Shown here one piece after another: positions 6,042-16,631 of a DNA stretch of 64,000 nt. Source of the DNA: Ohtaekwangia koreensis. GTDB taxonomy: Bacteria > Bacteroidota > Bacteroidia > Cytophagales > Cyclobacteriaceae. A program made the position numbers and the translations under genes. The stretch is from the NCBI RefSeq assembly GCF_900167975.1, contig NZ_FUZU01000005.1:5001-69000 (forward strand), read 5' to 3'. Every line of letters starts with the position of its first letter. Positions within the stretch are counted from its first letter, which is position 1. The notes under the pieces are model-generated. The model worked only from the letters and a program-made list of their open reading frames with translations, searched no databases and had not been told where the DNA came from.

Positions 6042-7142
6042 ATGACTATTACAAAACGACTGCTCTCTATGGCAGCCCTTACCGCTGTTATCGGATTCTC
6101 TTCATGTGACAATGATGATGACAAAAAAGACAGTAATCAGCTTTCTAAAGATCAAGCGAAAGCTACTATCTCTACATTCAATTCGGATGCTAAAAACGAT
6201 CTGCAAGATTTATCGGATGCAGATGGTTTAAAAGCTGTTAAAGATCTGTTTAACCTTGTGGATACAGATGACCCTTTCGGAAGAATAGGAACTGATCGCA
6301 AGAAGATCCGTCACTTCTTTCAAGAAAAAGGCACTGACTTCAAAAAAGTATTCACTAAAAACACGAATGGCCGGGTAGCACAAGAAGCATTTGATTTCGA
6401 AGCGAACCTCGGTATATATGTATGGAACCCGGAATTAGGTGAAGCCGGAGAGTTTGAACGTGTCAGCGATGCTGAAGTAATTGAAATTCAGTTTCCAACC
6501 GAGGGATCTTCTACCAATGATGCAAAACTTACGCTTGAAGGATATAGCGAAATAGAATTCTTCGATGAAGAATTTCAGGAAACATACTATGAACCGGAAT
6601 TACTCGATGCGCACCTCCATGTTGATGGAGTAAAAGTAGCATCTATATACCTTGAAGCAGAGTGGGACGAAAGTGGCTTTCCGTTGGCAGCTTCGGTAGT
6701 ATTCAACGTTGCCCCCTATAAAGTTAGCATTGAATTCGATGATAACGCAGCAACTTCATCCTATATCAATATTTCCCTTCTACAAAATCAACAAACATTA
6801 TTGGCTACAAGTGTTACGCTTAAGTATAAGAACAGTTCTAAATCAGAAGAAAGTCTTACAAGCGTTGACGGTTACGTTCAATTGAAAAACCTGAAAGTGA
6901 AAGGTATAATTAATGGAGAAGAGTTGAACAAGCCTGAAATAGATTGGAATAAAATTATCAAAGCTGCACTCTACGATGGTAATGATAAAAAATTAGGTGA
7001 TATAATTCATGTTGAAGAAAACGGAGCATATATTCCTTACATCCAGTATATCGATGGCTCGAAAGAGAAACTGGAGACTGTTCTGCAACCTGTTGTAGAT
7101 GAAATTGAAAACCTGAAGGAAGATTTTGAAATCAATAGCTAA
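6042..7142 (+). CDS. Hypothetical surface lipoprotein
   Basis: The 366-residue protein begins with a lipoprotein signal ending SSC at Cys22. The Asp-rich CDNDDDKKD that follows resembles the acidic lipoprotein export signal that sends Bacteroidota lipoproteins to the cell surface. The mature part is acidic, mostly beta-type by appearance, and matches no domain I recognise. It is transcribed alone, divergently from the ompA-like operon, and ends in its own terminator. Confidence 0.75.
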   Translation: MTITKRLLSMAALTAVIGFSSCDNDDDKKDSNQLSKDQAKATISTFNSDAKNDLQDLSDADGLKAVKDLFNLVDTDDPFGRIGTDRKKIRHFFQEKGTDFKKVFTKNTNGRVAQEAFDFEANLGIYVWNPELGEAGEFERVSDAEVIEIQFPTEGSSTNDAKLTLEGYSEIEFFDEEFQETYYEPELLDAHLHVDGVKVASIYLEAEWDESGFPLAASVVFNVAPYKVSIEFDDNAATSSYINISLLQNQQTLLATSVTLKYKNSSKSEESLTSVDGYVQLKNLKVKGIINGEELNKPEIDWNKIIKAALYDGNDKKLGDIIHVEENGAYIPYIQYIDGSKEKLETVLQPVVDEIENLKEDFEINS

Positions 7143-7163
7143 CACAATACCCCTCTCTATCTT

Positions 7164-7191
7164 AAAGGACTGTTTATACAGTCCTTTTTTA
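7164..7191 (+). terminator. Intrinsic terminator after the surface lipoprotein gene
   Basis: A 10-bp stem (7164-7173 with 7178-7187) with a TTAT loop runs into six T residues, 21 nt past the stop codon. Confidence 0.9.
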
Positions 7192-7256
7192 TTTACCCGA
7201 AGCCGTAGGAAATATATTCTTATTCGCTACTTTCAATGATCTAAAAAATCAATGAC

Positions 7257-8114
7257 ATGGAAGGAATGTTAAAACCCGGAAGCTTGAAAGATAGAACCAT
7301 CATTATAACGGGTGGCGGAACCGGACTAGGCCGATCAATGGGGAAATACTTTTTGGAACTTGGTGCGAACCTTGTAATCACCAGCCGTAAAAAAGATGTA
7401 TTGGATAAATCGGCTGATGAGTTGATGAAAGAAACGGGTGGAAAAGTATTGGCCGTTACCTGTGATGTTCGCAAATATGAAGAGATCGATAATGTTATTA
7501 AAACAACAGAAGCTACGTTTGGACAAATTCATGGAGTGCTTAATAATGCAGCCGGTAATTTTATAAGTCCAACGGAGCGCCTTTCACATCGCGCATTTGA
7601 TATAGTAGTAGATATAGTATTAAAAGGTACATATTATACAACACTTGCTGCAGGTAAAAACTGGATTGAAAAAAAGCAGCCTGGAGTTTTTCTAAATATA
7701 GTTACAACCTATGCATGGACGGGTTCCGGATATGTAGTGCCCTCTGCGTGTGGTAAAGCAGGTGTGCTTGCGTTAACAAGGTCGCTTGCTGTTGAGTGGG
7801 CAAAGTACAAGATCAGAAGTAACGCAATTGCCCCCGGACCGTTCCCCACTGAAGGTGCATGGAGTCGCTTGTTACCCGGTGAGTTAGTAGAAAAATTTGA
7901 TCCCGCACAACGCGTTCCATTGAAACGTGTTGGTGAGCACCAGGAACTCGCTAACCTGGCTGCATATTTAATGTCCGATTATTCCGCATACGTAAACGGT
8001 GAAGTGATTACCATCGATGGCGGTGAGTGGCTACGCAATGGCGGTGAGTTCAGTCACCTTGAAACTATACCAGAGACCATGTGGGACATGATTGAAAAAG
8101 GGCGTGGTAAGTAA
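7257..8114 (+). CDS. SDR-family 2,4-dienoyl-CoA reductase-like oxidoreductase
   Basis: The 285-residue short-chain dehydrogenase has the nucleotide motif TGGGTGLGR near residue 19 and NNAAG near 97. The active site is of the mammalian DECR1 type: Tyr in TYAWTGSG lies 15 residues before Lys in SACGK, with Ser instead of Tyr at the usual YxxxK position. Such enzymes reduce 2,4-dienoyl-CoA with NADPH during oxidation of polyunsaturated fatty acids. The tail GPFPTEGAWSRL also matches DECR. Start may be Met1 or Met4 (7266). It precedes bioF by 60 nt but probably has a separate role. Confidence 0.85.
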   Translation: MEGMLKPGSLKDRTIIITGGGTGLGRSMGKYFLELGANLVITSRKKDVLDKSADELMKETGGKVLAVTCDVRKYEEIDNVIKTTEATFGQIHGVLNNAAGNFISPTERLSHRAFDIVVDIVLKGTYYTTLAAGKNWIEKKQPGVFLNIVTTYAWTGSGYVVPSACGKAGVLALTRSLAVEWAKYKIRSNAIAPGPFPTEGAWSRLLPGELVEKFDPAQRVPLKRVGEHQELANLAAYLMSDYSAYVNGEVITIDGGEWLRNGGEFSHLETIPETMWDMIEKGRGK

Positions 8115-8145
8115 CCACGTGATTCGTTGAAGCAGAAAGCTATAT

Positions 8146-8169
8146 CTTGATCAAAGATTTATATTTTTG
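8146..8169 (+). promoter_or_regulatory. Possible bioF promoter -7 element and overlapping palindrome
   Basis: TATTTTTG at 8162-8169 matches the Bacteroidota -7 consensus TAnnTTTG, but no good -33 TTTG lies at the usual distance. Eight bases upstream is the perfect palindrome TTGATCAA (8146-8153), placed like an operator. With only four bases between the element and the ATG at 8174, the transcript would be leaderless or nearly so. Regulation by a biotin repressor is speculation. Confidence 0.4.
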
Positions 8170-8173
8170 ACGC

Positions 8174-9313
8174 ATGGATGCATGGAGAAAAGAATTGCAG
8201 GGACGTTTGAAGGCTCGCGAAAAAGAAGGATTACTCAGAACTCTGAAGTATACTTCTGATCAAATTGATTTTTCTTCCAATGATTACCTTGGTCTTTCGC
8301 GTTCTGAGTCATTGTTCAATGAGATTCACCAGGAACTTGATGCGCTTACTATAAAAAGAAATGGCGCAACAGGCTCACGATTGCTGGCTGGCAACACTGA
8401 GTATTACGAAGAAACCGAGTCCCGCCTGGCTAAGATTTTTAAGGCAGACGCATCACTGATTTTTAACTCTGGCTATACTGCCAACCTGGCTGTATTATCA
8501 TCATTACCCCAACGTAATGACACTATACTTTACGATGAACTTGCACATGCCTGTATAAAAGATGGTGCACGGCTAAGTCTCGCCAAACGTTATAGCTTTC
8601 GGCATAATGATTTGAATGACCTCGAAGCTAAACTCAAGCGGGCAGAAGGCAAGATATATATAGCAGTTGAATCCATATATTCTATGGATGGCGATCAATG
8701 TCCTTTGCAAGAGCTGGTTTCGCTTTCAGAGAAGTACAATGCCTTTATAATTTTGGATGAAGCCCACAGCACCGGTGTGATGGGGGAACAGGGGAGCGGT
8801 CTTGCCGTTTCGTTGAACGTGCATTCCAAAATTGCAGTGCGTGTATATACGTTTGGCAAAGCAATGGGTATACATGGAGCTTGTGTTGCAGGGAACAATG
8901 ATCTGCATGACTACCTGATTAATTTTGCCCGGCCTTTTATCTATACCACAGCATTGCCTCCACACAGTATTGCCGCGATAGACTGTGCTTTCAAATATCT
9001 AAGCAATAATATATATCTGCAGGAACGGCTCCGGAATAATATCCAGTTTTTTTTACATGCTGTTCAGGACTTGCCGAACAGAACGATCAGTACGAGCGCA
9101 ATTCAGACGGCTATATATCCCGGCAACGAGAACGCAAGAATAGCAGCAACAGAATTGCAACAGAAAGGTTTCGATGTTCGCCCTATACTTTCTCCCACTG
9201 TACCAAAAGGATCTGAACGACTGCGAATTTGCCTGCATACATTTAATACGAAGTCTGATATTGAAGCGCTTGCTTCCACATTGAAATCATTTCAGGCAGT
9301 GATGCATTCGTAA
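8174..9313 (+). CDS. bioF: 8-amino-7-oxononanoate synthase
   Basis: This 379-residue PLP enzyme condenses pimeloyl-ACP (or -CoA) with alanine to make 8-amino-7-oxononanoate, the first ring-forming step of biotin synthesis. Visible marks are SNDYLGL near residue 36, NGATGSRLL near 71, the DEAHSTGVMG aspartate that contacts the pyridine nitrogen near 196, and the PLP lysine in TFGKAMG near 228. It heads the bioF-bioD-bioA run, with 19 nt to bioD. Related 2-amino-3-ketobutyrate ligase is excluded mainly by context. bioB and bioC are not in the window. Confidence 0.95.
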   Translation: MDAWRKELQGRLKAREKEGLLRTLKYTSDQIDFSSNDYLGLSRSESLFNEIHQELDALTIKRNGATGSRLLAGNTEYYEETESRLAKIFKADASLIFNSGYTANLAVLSSLPQRNDTILYDELAHACIKDGARLSLAKRYSFRHNDLNDLEAKLKRAEGKIYIAVESIYSMDGDQCPLQELVSLSEKYNAFIILDEAHSTGVMGEQGSGLAVSLNVHSKIAVRVYTFGKAMGIHGACVAGNNDLHDYLINFARPFIYTTALPPHSIAAIDCAFKYLSNNIYLQERLRNNIQFFLHAVQDLPNRTISTSAIQTAIYPGNENARIAATELQQKGFDVRPILSPTVPKGSERLRICLHTFNTKSDIEALASTLKSFQAVMHS

Positions 9314-9332
9314 TTTACTATTAACTTTCCGC

Positions 9333-9941
9333 ATGAATTATTTTGTCACGGCTATCGACACAGACAGTGGTAAGACAATGGTATCTGCTATACTGTGTGA
9401 AGCATTGCAAGCTGATTACTGGAAGCCTGTACAGGCAGGCTTGCCGCGGGACGCAGACACCGTACAAAAACTTGTCGGCAACAACACAATAATTTTTCCG
9501 GAAGCATACGTATTAAAAACTCCGGCCTCACCACATGCAGCCGCTGCGTTGGATGGTATCACCATGAAGCTTTCGGGATTTATAGTTCCGCCAACGAAGA
9601 ACGATCTGGTGATCGAAGGTGCGGGTGGATGCCTGGTTCCATTGAACGATACTGATTTTGTTATTGACCTCGCAGCAAAAGTGGCTGATGTTGTTATACT
9701 GGTCGCTGATTTATACCTCGGTAGTATTAATCATACATTACTTACGGTTGAAGCATTGCGAAAACGAAACCTTCGTGTGAAAGGTATAATATTCAATGGT
9801 CAGCCGAATCGGGAGAGTGAAAGAATTATACTTCACCATTCAGGATTGCGTTGTCTATTGCGTATTGCCCGCGAAGAAACTATAGATCAGAATACAGTGA
9901 AGCGGTACGCTGATCTTCTAAAGGAAAACTGGAATGAATAA
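9333..9941 (+). CDS. bioD: Dethiobiotin synthetase
   Basis: The 202-residue enzyme carboxylates and closes 7,8-diaminononanoate with ATP to form dethiobiotin. It has YWKPVQAG near residue 30, the magnesium/substrate loop IEGAGGCLVPL near 94, and VILVADLYLGS near 124. The phosphate-binding loop reads AIDTDSGKT, where GTDTDVGKT is usual: Gly is replaced by Ala and the Val by Ser, while the essential GKT is intact. The 3' end overlaps bioA by 8 nt, suggesting coupled translation. Confidence 0.92.
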   Translation: MNYFVTAIDTDSGKTMVSAILCEALQADYWKPVQAGLPRDADTVQKLVGNNTIIFPEAYVLKTPASPHAAAALDGITMKLSGFIVPPTKNDLVIEGAGGCLVPLNDTDFVIDLAAKVADVVILVADLYLGSINHTLLTVEALRKRNLRVKGIIFNGQPNRESERIILHHSGLRCLLRIAREETIDQNTVKRYADLLKENWNE

Positions 9942-14981: not shown

Positions 14982-16631
14982 CTATTTATACAGTTTCTCA
15001 TAATACTCATCCGCCATTCTTCCTGAATCAAAGAAAGGCAGTACATCCGTCATACTGTTCTTAACAATATTCAACCACTTATCAGGGTTATCATAATATA
15101 GCGGAATGATTTCATGTTCAAGCAGGTCGAGTAATGCATGCGCTTCGATCTTGTCTTTCGATTCCTGCGTCAGCTGATCATTTGCAGTATCGATGATGAA
15201 GGCATTCTTTCCATGCTTGGAGAATTCAGGAACCCATCCATCGGGAATAGAAAGGTTAACCGAGCCGTTCATTGCTGCCGTCATACCGGAAGTTCCGGAA
15301 GCCTCGTGATATAGTCTTGGATTATTCAACCATAGATCAGAGCCTTTCTTTAAATGTGCCGATAACCAGAGTTCATATCCCGTTACAACGGTACAGTTAG
15401 GCAAATCCTTCGTCTTCCAATAGATCTCATTGAAAATATTGATTGCCCCGTAATCTTCCGGGTAAGGTTTGCCGGCCCATATAATCTGAATGGGATACTT
15501 TGTATTCTGTGCAATGCGCAAGAACCGATTATAGTCTGACAATAAAAGATTCGCACGTTTGTAAGCCGCGAAACGTCTAGCCCATACAATGGTAAGTACA
15601 TTCTCATTGAACAACTTTCCCGTTTGGTTAGCAACCGTGCGGAAGAGTTTATACTTCAATTCTTTTTTTCGCGAGACAAGAGCTTTATCATTTCCTTCGC
15701 TCAGAGATTTACCCAGCTCTTCATCAAGCCAATATGTTTTATTCTGTGCATTTGTAATCGCTGTGATCTCACAGATCCCTTTGTAATCGCCCCACATTTT
15801 TCTCGAGACTTCGCCATGCAATTGGGAAACTCCGTTAGCACGTTTTGCCAGGCGCAATGCTGTTAGGGTATAATTCAACACTCCGTTTTCGGGATGAACG
15901 TATTCTTCAACTTGCTTTACCGTTAGTCCATTGAAGAAACTCATGCTGTTTAACAACGGAATGCTATGCTCTTCATTGCCGGCTTTTTCAGGAGTGTGCG
16001 TTGTAAAGGCAACGCGTTTCTTTACTTCATCAAGATTCTTATACTTATCCAACAGATAGAAACACATCGGTAGCGCGTGCCCTTCATTCATGTGGTATAT
16101 ATCGGTTTCACGTCCCAGAATGTCCAGCAGCTTGGCACCACCTATACCTAACAAAATAGACTGCGCAATTCGGGTTGTCTCATTTGGATCATACAACCGA
16201 TGGCTGATCGTTTGTGCGAGGTAGTCGTTCTCTGGTATATCCGTTGAAAGCAAAAATAGCGGAGCGGTGTGAAATACATCAGGCTTCAGCAAGTATGCCT
16301 TCACAAATACTTTTGCACCGTGAATCGTAATGGGGAACACTATATTTGTGTCCGTAAGGAAGAAATATTCTTTGTCGCGAAAACTTACACGAAGCGTTTG
16401 GTCTTGATTGCGTTCCTGATCGTAATATCCTTTCTTCCAAAGAATACCGATACCGATCATATTTTGTTTTAATTCATACGCGCTACGTAAATGCGAACCT
16501 GCCAGAAAGCCGAGTCCACCACTATAAATCTTCAGTGGTTGATCAACAGCAAACTCCATTGAGAAATATGCTACGGGCTTTGAATATTTCTTATCGAACT
16601 GATAGGGGAAAAGCTCATTTAGTTTAATCAT
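14982..16631 (-). CDS. Short-form alpha-glucan phosphorylase (GT35), PLP lysine replaced by Thr
   Basis: The 549-residue protein aligns with the short alpha-glucan phosphorylase group (about 550-850 residues), which splits glucose-1-phosphate from glycogen or maltodextrin. It keeps the N-terminal FSMEFAVD and YSGGLGFLAG, the catalytic-core MNEGHA near 201, the phosphate-site block RRFAAYKR near 352 and the signature EASGTSGMxAAMNG near 443-456. In the classical enzyme the position after Met in that signature is the lysine that binds pyridoxal phosphate (rabbit muscle Lys680). Here codon 451 is ACG, threonine. Either the protein is not a PLP phosphorylase or it works otherwise. Confidence 0.85.
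   Translation of the reverse strand: MIKLNELFPYQFDKKYSKPVAYFSMEFAVDQPLKIYSGGLGFLAGSHLRSAYELKQNMIGIGILWKKGYYDQERNQDQTLRVSFRDKEYFFLTDTNIVFPITIHGAKVFVKAYLLKPDVFHTAPLFLLSTDIPENDYLAQTISHRLYDPNETTRIAQSILLGIGGAKLLDILGRETDIYHMNEGHALPMCFYLLDKYKNLDEVKKRVAFTTHTPEKAGNEEHSIPLLNSMSFFNGLTVKQVEEYVHPENGVLNYTLTALRLAKRANGVSQLHGEVSRKMWGDYKGICEITAITNAQNKTYWLDEELGKSLSEGNDKALVSRKKELKYKLFRTVANQTGKLFNENVLTIVWARRFAAYKRANLLLSDYNRFLRIAQNTKYPIQIIWAGKPYPEDYGAINIFNEIYWKTKDLPNCTVVTGYELWLSAHLKKGSDLWLNNPRLYHEASGTSGMTAAMNGSVNLSIPDGWVPEFSKHGKNAFIIDTANDQLTQESKDKIEAHALLDLLEHEIIPLYYDNPDKWLNIVKNSMTDVLPFFDSGRMADEYYEKLYK

Follow-up and report, generated by a model that had tools for sequence, protein, structure and literature searches.

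Glycogen phosphorylase is the textbook example of an enzyme that uses PLP solely through its phosphate. A gene in the window (the whole 64,000-nucleotide stretch of Ohtaekwangia koreensis DNA analysed here) encodes a GT35 protein in which threonine occupies the place of the Schiff-base lysine, which raises the question of whether such a protein is a damaged phosphorylase, a chance variant, or an enzyme of glycogen metabolism that holds its cofactor differently or has given it up.

The family membership of the protein is clear. The gene starts with ATG and encodes 549 amino acids, and the product scores 433.6 bits on the NCBIfam model for alpha-glucan family phosphorylases (TIGR02094), above the cut-off of 191.7. 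It falls below the cut-offs of the classical phosphorylase model TIGR02093 (40.6 bits vs 552.9) and of the GlgA model for GT5 ADP-glucose glycogen synthases (26.3 bits vs 328.45), and its match to Pfam PF00343 is weak (47 bits). An AF2 model built with 35 orthologues as input reached a mean pLDDT of 89.5 and a pTM of 0.89; its best PDB matches in Foldseek are the Segatella copri glycogen phosphorylase structures 9l6i and 20yr (TM 0.86-0.87), followed by other glycogen phosphorylases, and the best 50 matches listed are all glycogen or starch phosphorylases, as expected for a GT35 fold. By sequence and fold, then, this is a TIGR02094/GT35 protein. When compared with PLP-dependent glycogen phosphorylases (EC 2.4.1.1), it retains the residues of the glucose and phosphate sites and lacks the Schiff-base lysine; because that defining residue is missing, the protein is, as judged from its alignment, outside the PLP-Schiff-base phosphorylases. 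The features discussed below are collected in Table 1.

Table 1. Coordinates in the window of the Thr-form gene and of the sites discussed in the text.
Feature	Position	Strand	Basis
549-aa Thr-form GT35 (TIGR02094-like) protein	14982..16631	(-)	ORF, family-model scores, AF2 model
Signature E443-ASGTSGM-T451-AAMNG456; glucose site E443/A444/S445/G446 kept	15264..15305	(-)	Alignment
Thr451 (codon ACG), aligned with the PLP Schiff-base lysine of MalP (Lys646)	15279..15281	(-)	Thr 113/Ser 3 in 116 orthologues; Lys in all outgroups checked
K428, candidate alternative Schiff-base lysine, invariant in Thr clade (116/116)	15348..15350	(-)	Never Lys in 16 Lys-forms aligned
R352-RFAAYK-R359; PLP-phosphate and substrate-phosphate residues (MalP K534, R535, K540) kept as R/K, R, K	15555..15578	(-)	Alignment
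N294-AQNKTY-W301; glucose Asn (MalP N450) and Trp457 kept; A295, Q296, Y300 clade-specific	15729..15752	(-)	Alignment
H212-TPEKAGN-E220; catalytic-site His (MalP H346) kept; E215, N219 clade-specific	15972..15998	(-)	Alignment
W65-K66, clade-specific; K66 (Lys in 113/116) a weak candidate for an alternative Schiff-base lysine	16434..16439	(-)	Alignment
Glycine loop G38-G39-L40-G41 (MalP G114-G117) kept	16509..16520	(-)	Alignment

In a MAFFT alignment, T451 of the window protein falls on K646 of E. coli MalP (NC_000913), the PLP lysine of that enzyme (PMC11046441). A sequence-only reading of the window had already picked out threonine (ACG, 15279-15281) at the lysine position of EASGTSGM-x-AAMNG, and the alignment, which places the signature at residues 443-456, bears this out. 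That reading had also proposed a lineage-wide variant marking a distinct subfamily, to be checked by aligning residue 451 across Bacteroidota relatives, and the alignment strongly supports this: among 116 distinct full-length orthologues, drawn from a 396-genome phylum survey and 79 named loci (Chryseolinea, Dawidia, Flavobacterium, Chryseobacterium, Emticicia, Agriterribacter and others), position 451 is Thr in 113, Ser in three (L052, L053, L058) and Lys in none. Lysine is found at the PLP position in MalP, and in 39/39 sister-group sequences checked. These comprise the 16 Lys-forms aligned together with the Thr clade, nine plasmid-borne forms from Chlamydiota, Actinomycetota, Cyanobacteriota, Pseudomonadota, Deinococcota and Bacteroidota (the signature of a Tsukamurella plasmid Lys-form reads EACGTSGMK), 12 further Bacteroidota proteins, some of them GT3-GT35 fusions, and two fusions from one genus (g3). 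A lone mutation is ruled out by the Thr or Ser found in 116/116 orthologues. A sequencing error at 15279-15281, which had been named as a finding that could undo the claim, and a pseudogene are both excluded by the same orthologues, by a protein 100% identical over 549 aa encoded at a MAG locus (L090), and by synonymous codon use, with ACG, ACT and ACC all occurring among near relatives.

How the lysine was lost can be read from a maximum-likelihood tree of 39 rows, in which the Thr-forms are monophyletic (support 100/100) and nested among Lys-forms, with a Lys-bearing protein (L059) as their sister (99/97). Since the Thr-forms lie on one side of a 100/100 branch, inside the Lys-forms and next to a Lys-bearing sister, the lysine was most simply lost once. 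The stem branch of the clade is very long, at 1.64 changes per site, and comparisons with near relatives give dN of 0.04-0.13 with saturated dS, which points to strong purifying selection. Taken together, this is most simply read as one ancient replacement followed by strong conservation, and on the evidence of the tree the Thr/Ser clade, with a hydroxyl residue where the PLP-anchoring lysine was, is a subfamily of single and ancient origin within the GT35 alpha-glucan phosphorylases of Bacteroidota. A MAG labelled Klebsiella pneumoniae (L161, CALPPA020000151.1) carries a Bacteroidota Thr-form gene, 56% identical and ending at the contig edge; this contig is probably mis-binned.

The remainder of the active site has been kept to a considerable extent. 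Thr- and Lys-forms share Y22, E26, the GGLG loop at 38-41, H185, H212, N294, W301, R352-R353, Y357-K358, K388 and E443-A444-S445-G446-T447, and within the Thr clade E443, A444, S445, G446, T447, H212, N294, W301, R353, Y357 (115/116), K358, G38 and G39 are invariant or nearly so. The phosphate-site residues of RRFAAYKR (352-359) are retained, as had been noticed. R352, which is Arg or Lys in 116/116 of the clade, corresponds to MalP K534, a residue that coordinates the PLP phosphate (PMC11046441, from which the roles of K534 and K540 are taken). Because R/K is kept here, where the NDP-sugar transferases examined have Gly (as GR in a GT5 protein, L033, two GT3 proteins, L038 and L039, and a GT4-like protein, L172), the alignment suggests that a second phosphate is still held near R352. 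The catalytic residues thus bear out the description of the signature and its surroundings as otherwise intact, but that description does not extend to the rest of the protein, where at least 14 other clade-specific substitutions accompany the change of Lys to Thr. Those conserved in ≥95% of Thr-clade proteins but not shared with Lys-forms are S46, R49, W65, Y70, E215, N219, Y300, V349-W350, P389-Y390, G418, L421 and F470; A295-Q296, E420, S424 and K428 are also clade-specific. Several of these positions adjoin residues that touch PLP or substrate in the MalP and rabbit phosphorylase structures. The aromatics beside the pocket fit either a cavity that has been filled or one that is used again, and because active-site neighbours have changed (W65, E215, A295-Q296, Y300, W350, P389-Y390), the protein may have a different donor or substrate.

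Loss of the cofactor anchor might have left a catalytically dead protein that binds glucan or regulates its metabolism, a role that the sequence-only reading had entertained. We regard this as very improbable, given that the 116 proteins do not vary in their catalytic glucose and phosphate residues and that the Thr-form is usually the sole GT35 in genomes with a glycogen pathway, to which the gene is tied. Perhaps, instead, the protein is a covalent PLP enzyme still, its Schiff base having shifted to another lysine. K428 would be the best candidate: the residues found in its place in the 16 Lys-forms are Val, Thr or Ile, and it sits at i+8 relative to the clade-invariant E420 and at i+4 relative to S424, all three on the same helix. 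A second candidate, K66, is not invariant; K428 itself stands nine residues further along a helix than the PLP-site residue Y419, and we know of no migration of a Schiff-base lysine in GT35. This shift is improbable, if less so than a dead protein.

Genome surveys tie the gene to the glycogen pathway. In a survey of 68 genomes, comprising 42 Thr-form carriers, 6 Lys-form carriers and 20 genomes without any GT35, a branching enzyme was found in 42/42 Thr-form carriers and in 13/20 genomes without GT35 (Fisher p 1.6e-4, ignoring shared ancestry), a count that includes, as branching enzymes of the eukaryote type, ten matches of ~670-720 aa that fell short of the TIGR01515 cut-off, one of them checked against PDB and two by model scores. 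GH77 MalQ is present in 27/42 Thr-form carriers, compared with 1/20 genomes without GT35 (p 6.6e-6, again ignoring shared ancestry) and 5/6 Lys-form carriers; no classical TIGR02093 phosphorylase scored over its cut-off in any of the 68 genomes. The Thr-form is usually the only GT35 copy of its genome, and among 395 genomes of the class it occurs in 39, the Lys-form in 38 and both in none. A conserved chromosomal context of the Thr-form gene was not found, local synteny being confined to near relatives. The Pontibacter Thr-form, however, belongs to a plasmid island in which its neighbours are type II GAPDH and DUF1622 genes, much like Lys-forms that neighbour DUF1622 in Methylophaga and type II GAPDH and phosphoglucomutase in Indioceanicola. 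From the same pathway associations, the mostly separate carriers and the same plasmid neighbours, the Thr-form appears to take the place of the Lys-form in glucan metabolism. This replacement is not absolute, because two of the 61 genomes of genus g3 hold both the Thr-form and a Lys-form GT3-GT35 fusion (Lys in both fusions checked); strict mutual exclusion was dropped for this reason. Plasmid islands in which short GT35 genes travel with type II GAPDH, DUF1622, phosphoketolase, CBS-domain or phosphoglucomutase genes were seen across phyla (L183 at 6308-9638, L178, L179, L175, L184). In Runella a gene annotated as pyridoxamine 5′-phosphate oxidase family directly follows the Thr-form.

Overall, a large bacterial subfamily has indeed lost the PLP lysine, and this loss is conserved; the proteins still look catalytic and appear bound to the glycogen pathway, and the Thr-form probably works as a glucan phosphorylase or reversible glucosyltransferase. 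The explanation that we prefer, at a probability of a little under one half, is that it fills the phosphorylase slot of glycogen metabolism without covalently anchored PLP, using either a non-covalently held PLP-type ligand or none; its catalysis, direction and ligand are what we infer, from observed sequence, single origin, conservation, predicted fold and pathway association. Such an enzyme would stand in for the ordinary phosphorylase of the pathway, working at the non-reducing ends of glycogen or maltodextrin and transferring alpha-1,4-linked glucose between these ends and phosphate, in one direction or the other. With no Schiff base, R352, T447 and the glycine loop would grip a non-covalent ligand (PLP or a similar phosphate compound) that supplies the second phosphate, beside that of the substrate, and T451 would serve as a hydrogen-bonding residue at the former place of the lysine. 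Alternatively, no such ligand would be needed, as in the GT4 trehalose phosphorylases, which are PLP-free. A front-side mechanism common to these retaining enzymes and GT35 has been proposed (PMC8950772), although the trehalose phosphorylases belong to another family and act on another substrate. The non-PLP or altered reaction that the sequence-only reading had suggested is plausible on this evidence.

The main rival, which we consider doubtful, is that the PLP pocket has turned back into a nucleotide pocket, with W65, Y300 and W350 stacking on the base, and that the Thr-form is a sugar-nucleotide-dependent alpha-1,4-glucan synthase. One proposal is that a proto-GT35 enzyme used a nucleoside monophosphate whose place was later taken by PLP (PMC11046441), and the long stem of the clade would suit such a change. 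What keeps this rival alive is genus g3, where in three genomes (G076, G111, G194) the Thr-form is accompanied by a branching enzyme of the eukaryote type, and where a search limited to GT5, GlgC, GT3, GlgE and GH77 MalQ found none of these. The branching enzyme of G076 (L168) is closest to human GBE1 (structure 4bzy, 7.5e-212), and across the genus the Thr-form occurs in 52/61 genomes and GT3 in 2/61. In these three genomes the Thr-form is the only candidate found to make linear alpha-1,4-glucan, whether by reverse phosphorolysis from glucose 1-phosphate or from a sugar nucleotide, and a purely degradative enzyme does not explain the gene set. Against a synthase, GlgA is already present in 28/42 Thr-form carriers and GT3 in 9/42, which would leave such genomes with a second synthase but without a phosphorylase; the Gly that precedes the catalytic Arg in GT5/GT3/GT4 is absent, with R/K kept at that site, and so is the GT5 KxGG motif; and phosphorylases are the sole PDB matches of the clade profile. 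A broader version seems to us slightly more doubtful still: the Thr clade would have abandoned PLP and would fill the space left behind with a nucleotide sugar or some other phosphate ligand, so that some Bacteroidota would possess a glycogen synthase of a novel type. If true, nature would here have undone the proposed replacement of a nucleotide by PLP in the ancestry of glycogen phosphorylase.

A similar argument had been considered for the window genome, namely that a branching enzyme without a synthase would make the Thr-form the synthase. It was dropped, GlgE, TreS-maltokinase and GlgB standing together on contig C6 (L040, 3252-13187) in a row that also includes a GH57-like protein. This cluster is a GlgE-type alpha-glucan pathway in a Bacteroidota genome in which GlgA over its cut-off, GlgC and GT3 were not found; the genome has MalQ, and the window protein is its only GT35.

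The Thr-form can be compared with several known systems. The Lys-form TIGR02094 proteins (Segatella copri 9l6i/20yr and the short forms of Simkania and Methylophaga) share its fold, short length, glucose and phosphate residues, EASGTSG motif and association with branching enzyme and MalQ, but they have Lys in 39/39 checked, lack the clade-specific substitutions and are ~30-40% identical. Classical GT35 enzymes (TIGR02093, such as E. coli MalP/GlgP and rabbit muscle phosphorylase) have the same GT-B fold and catalytic His/Asn/Glu/Arg/Lys positions, but are ~250 residues longer and retain the PLP lysine. Glycogen synthases of GT5 and GT3 resemble the Thr-form in GT-B fold, catalytic Arg/Lys and retaining alpha-1,4-glucosyl transfer (predicted for the Thr-form), and differ in their NDP-glucose donor, in the Gly before the catalytic Arg and, in GT5, in the KxGG motif. 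No published description of a GT35 clade without the PLP lysine was found in the open-access literature. In many Bacteroidota the sole “glycogen phosphorylase” is named after a family whose key residue it lacks (the Thr-forms of Pontibacter and Runella carry the annotation glgP), and a cofactor-dependent textbook reaction probably runs differently in many bacteria in which databases label it ordinary. A conserved clade without the anchor makes testable both the need for the covalent link and the idea that a nucleotide preceded PLP in this fold.

Two further arrangements of glucan enzymes came to light in the surveys. In several Bacteroidota families a GT3-like glycogen synthase is fused to a Lys-form GT35 (~1330-1430 aa; L185-L190, L191-L194, L203, L204), so that one polypeptide carries both a synthase and a phosphorylase. 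The N-terminal half of a GT5 glycogen synthase also occurs on its own (frames of ~260-320 aa, model positions 2-220), a kind of fragment mentioned before (PMC11046441), in nearly all 68 genomes, among them genomes without GlgC.
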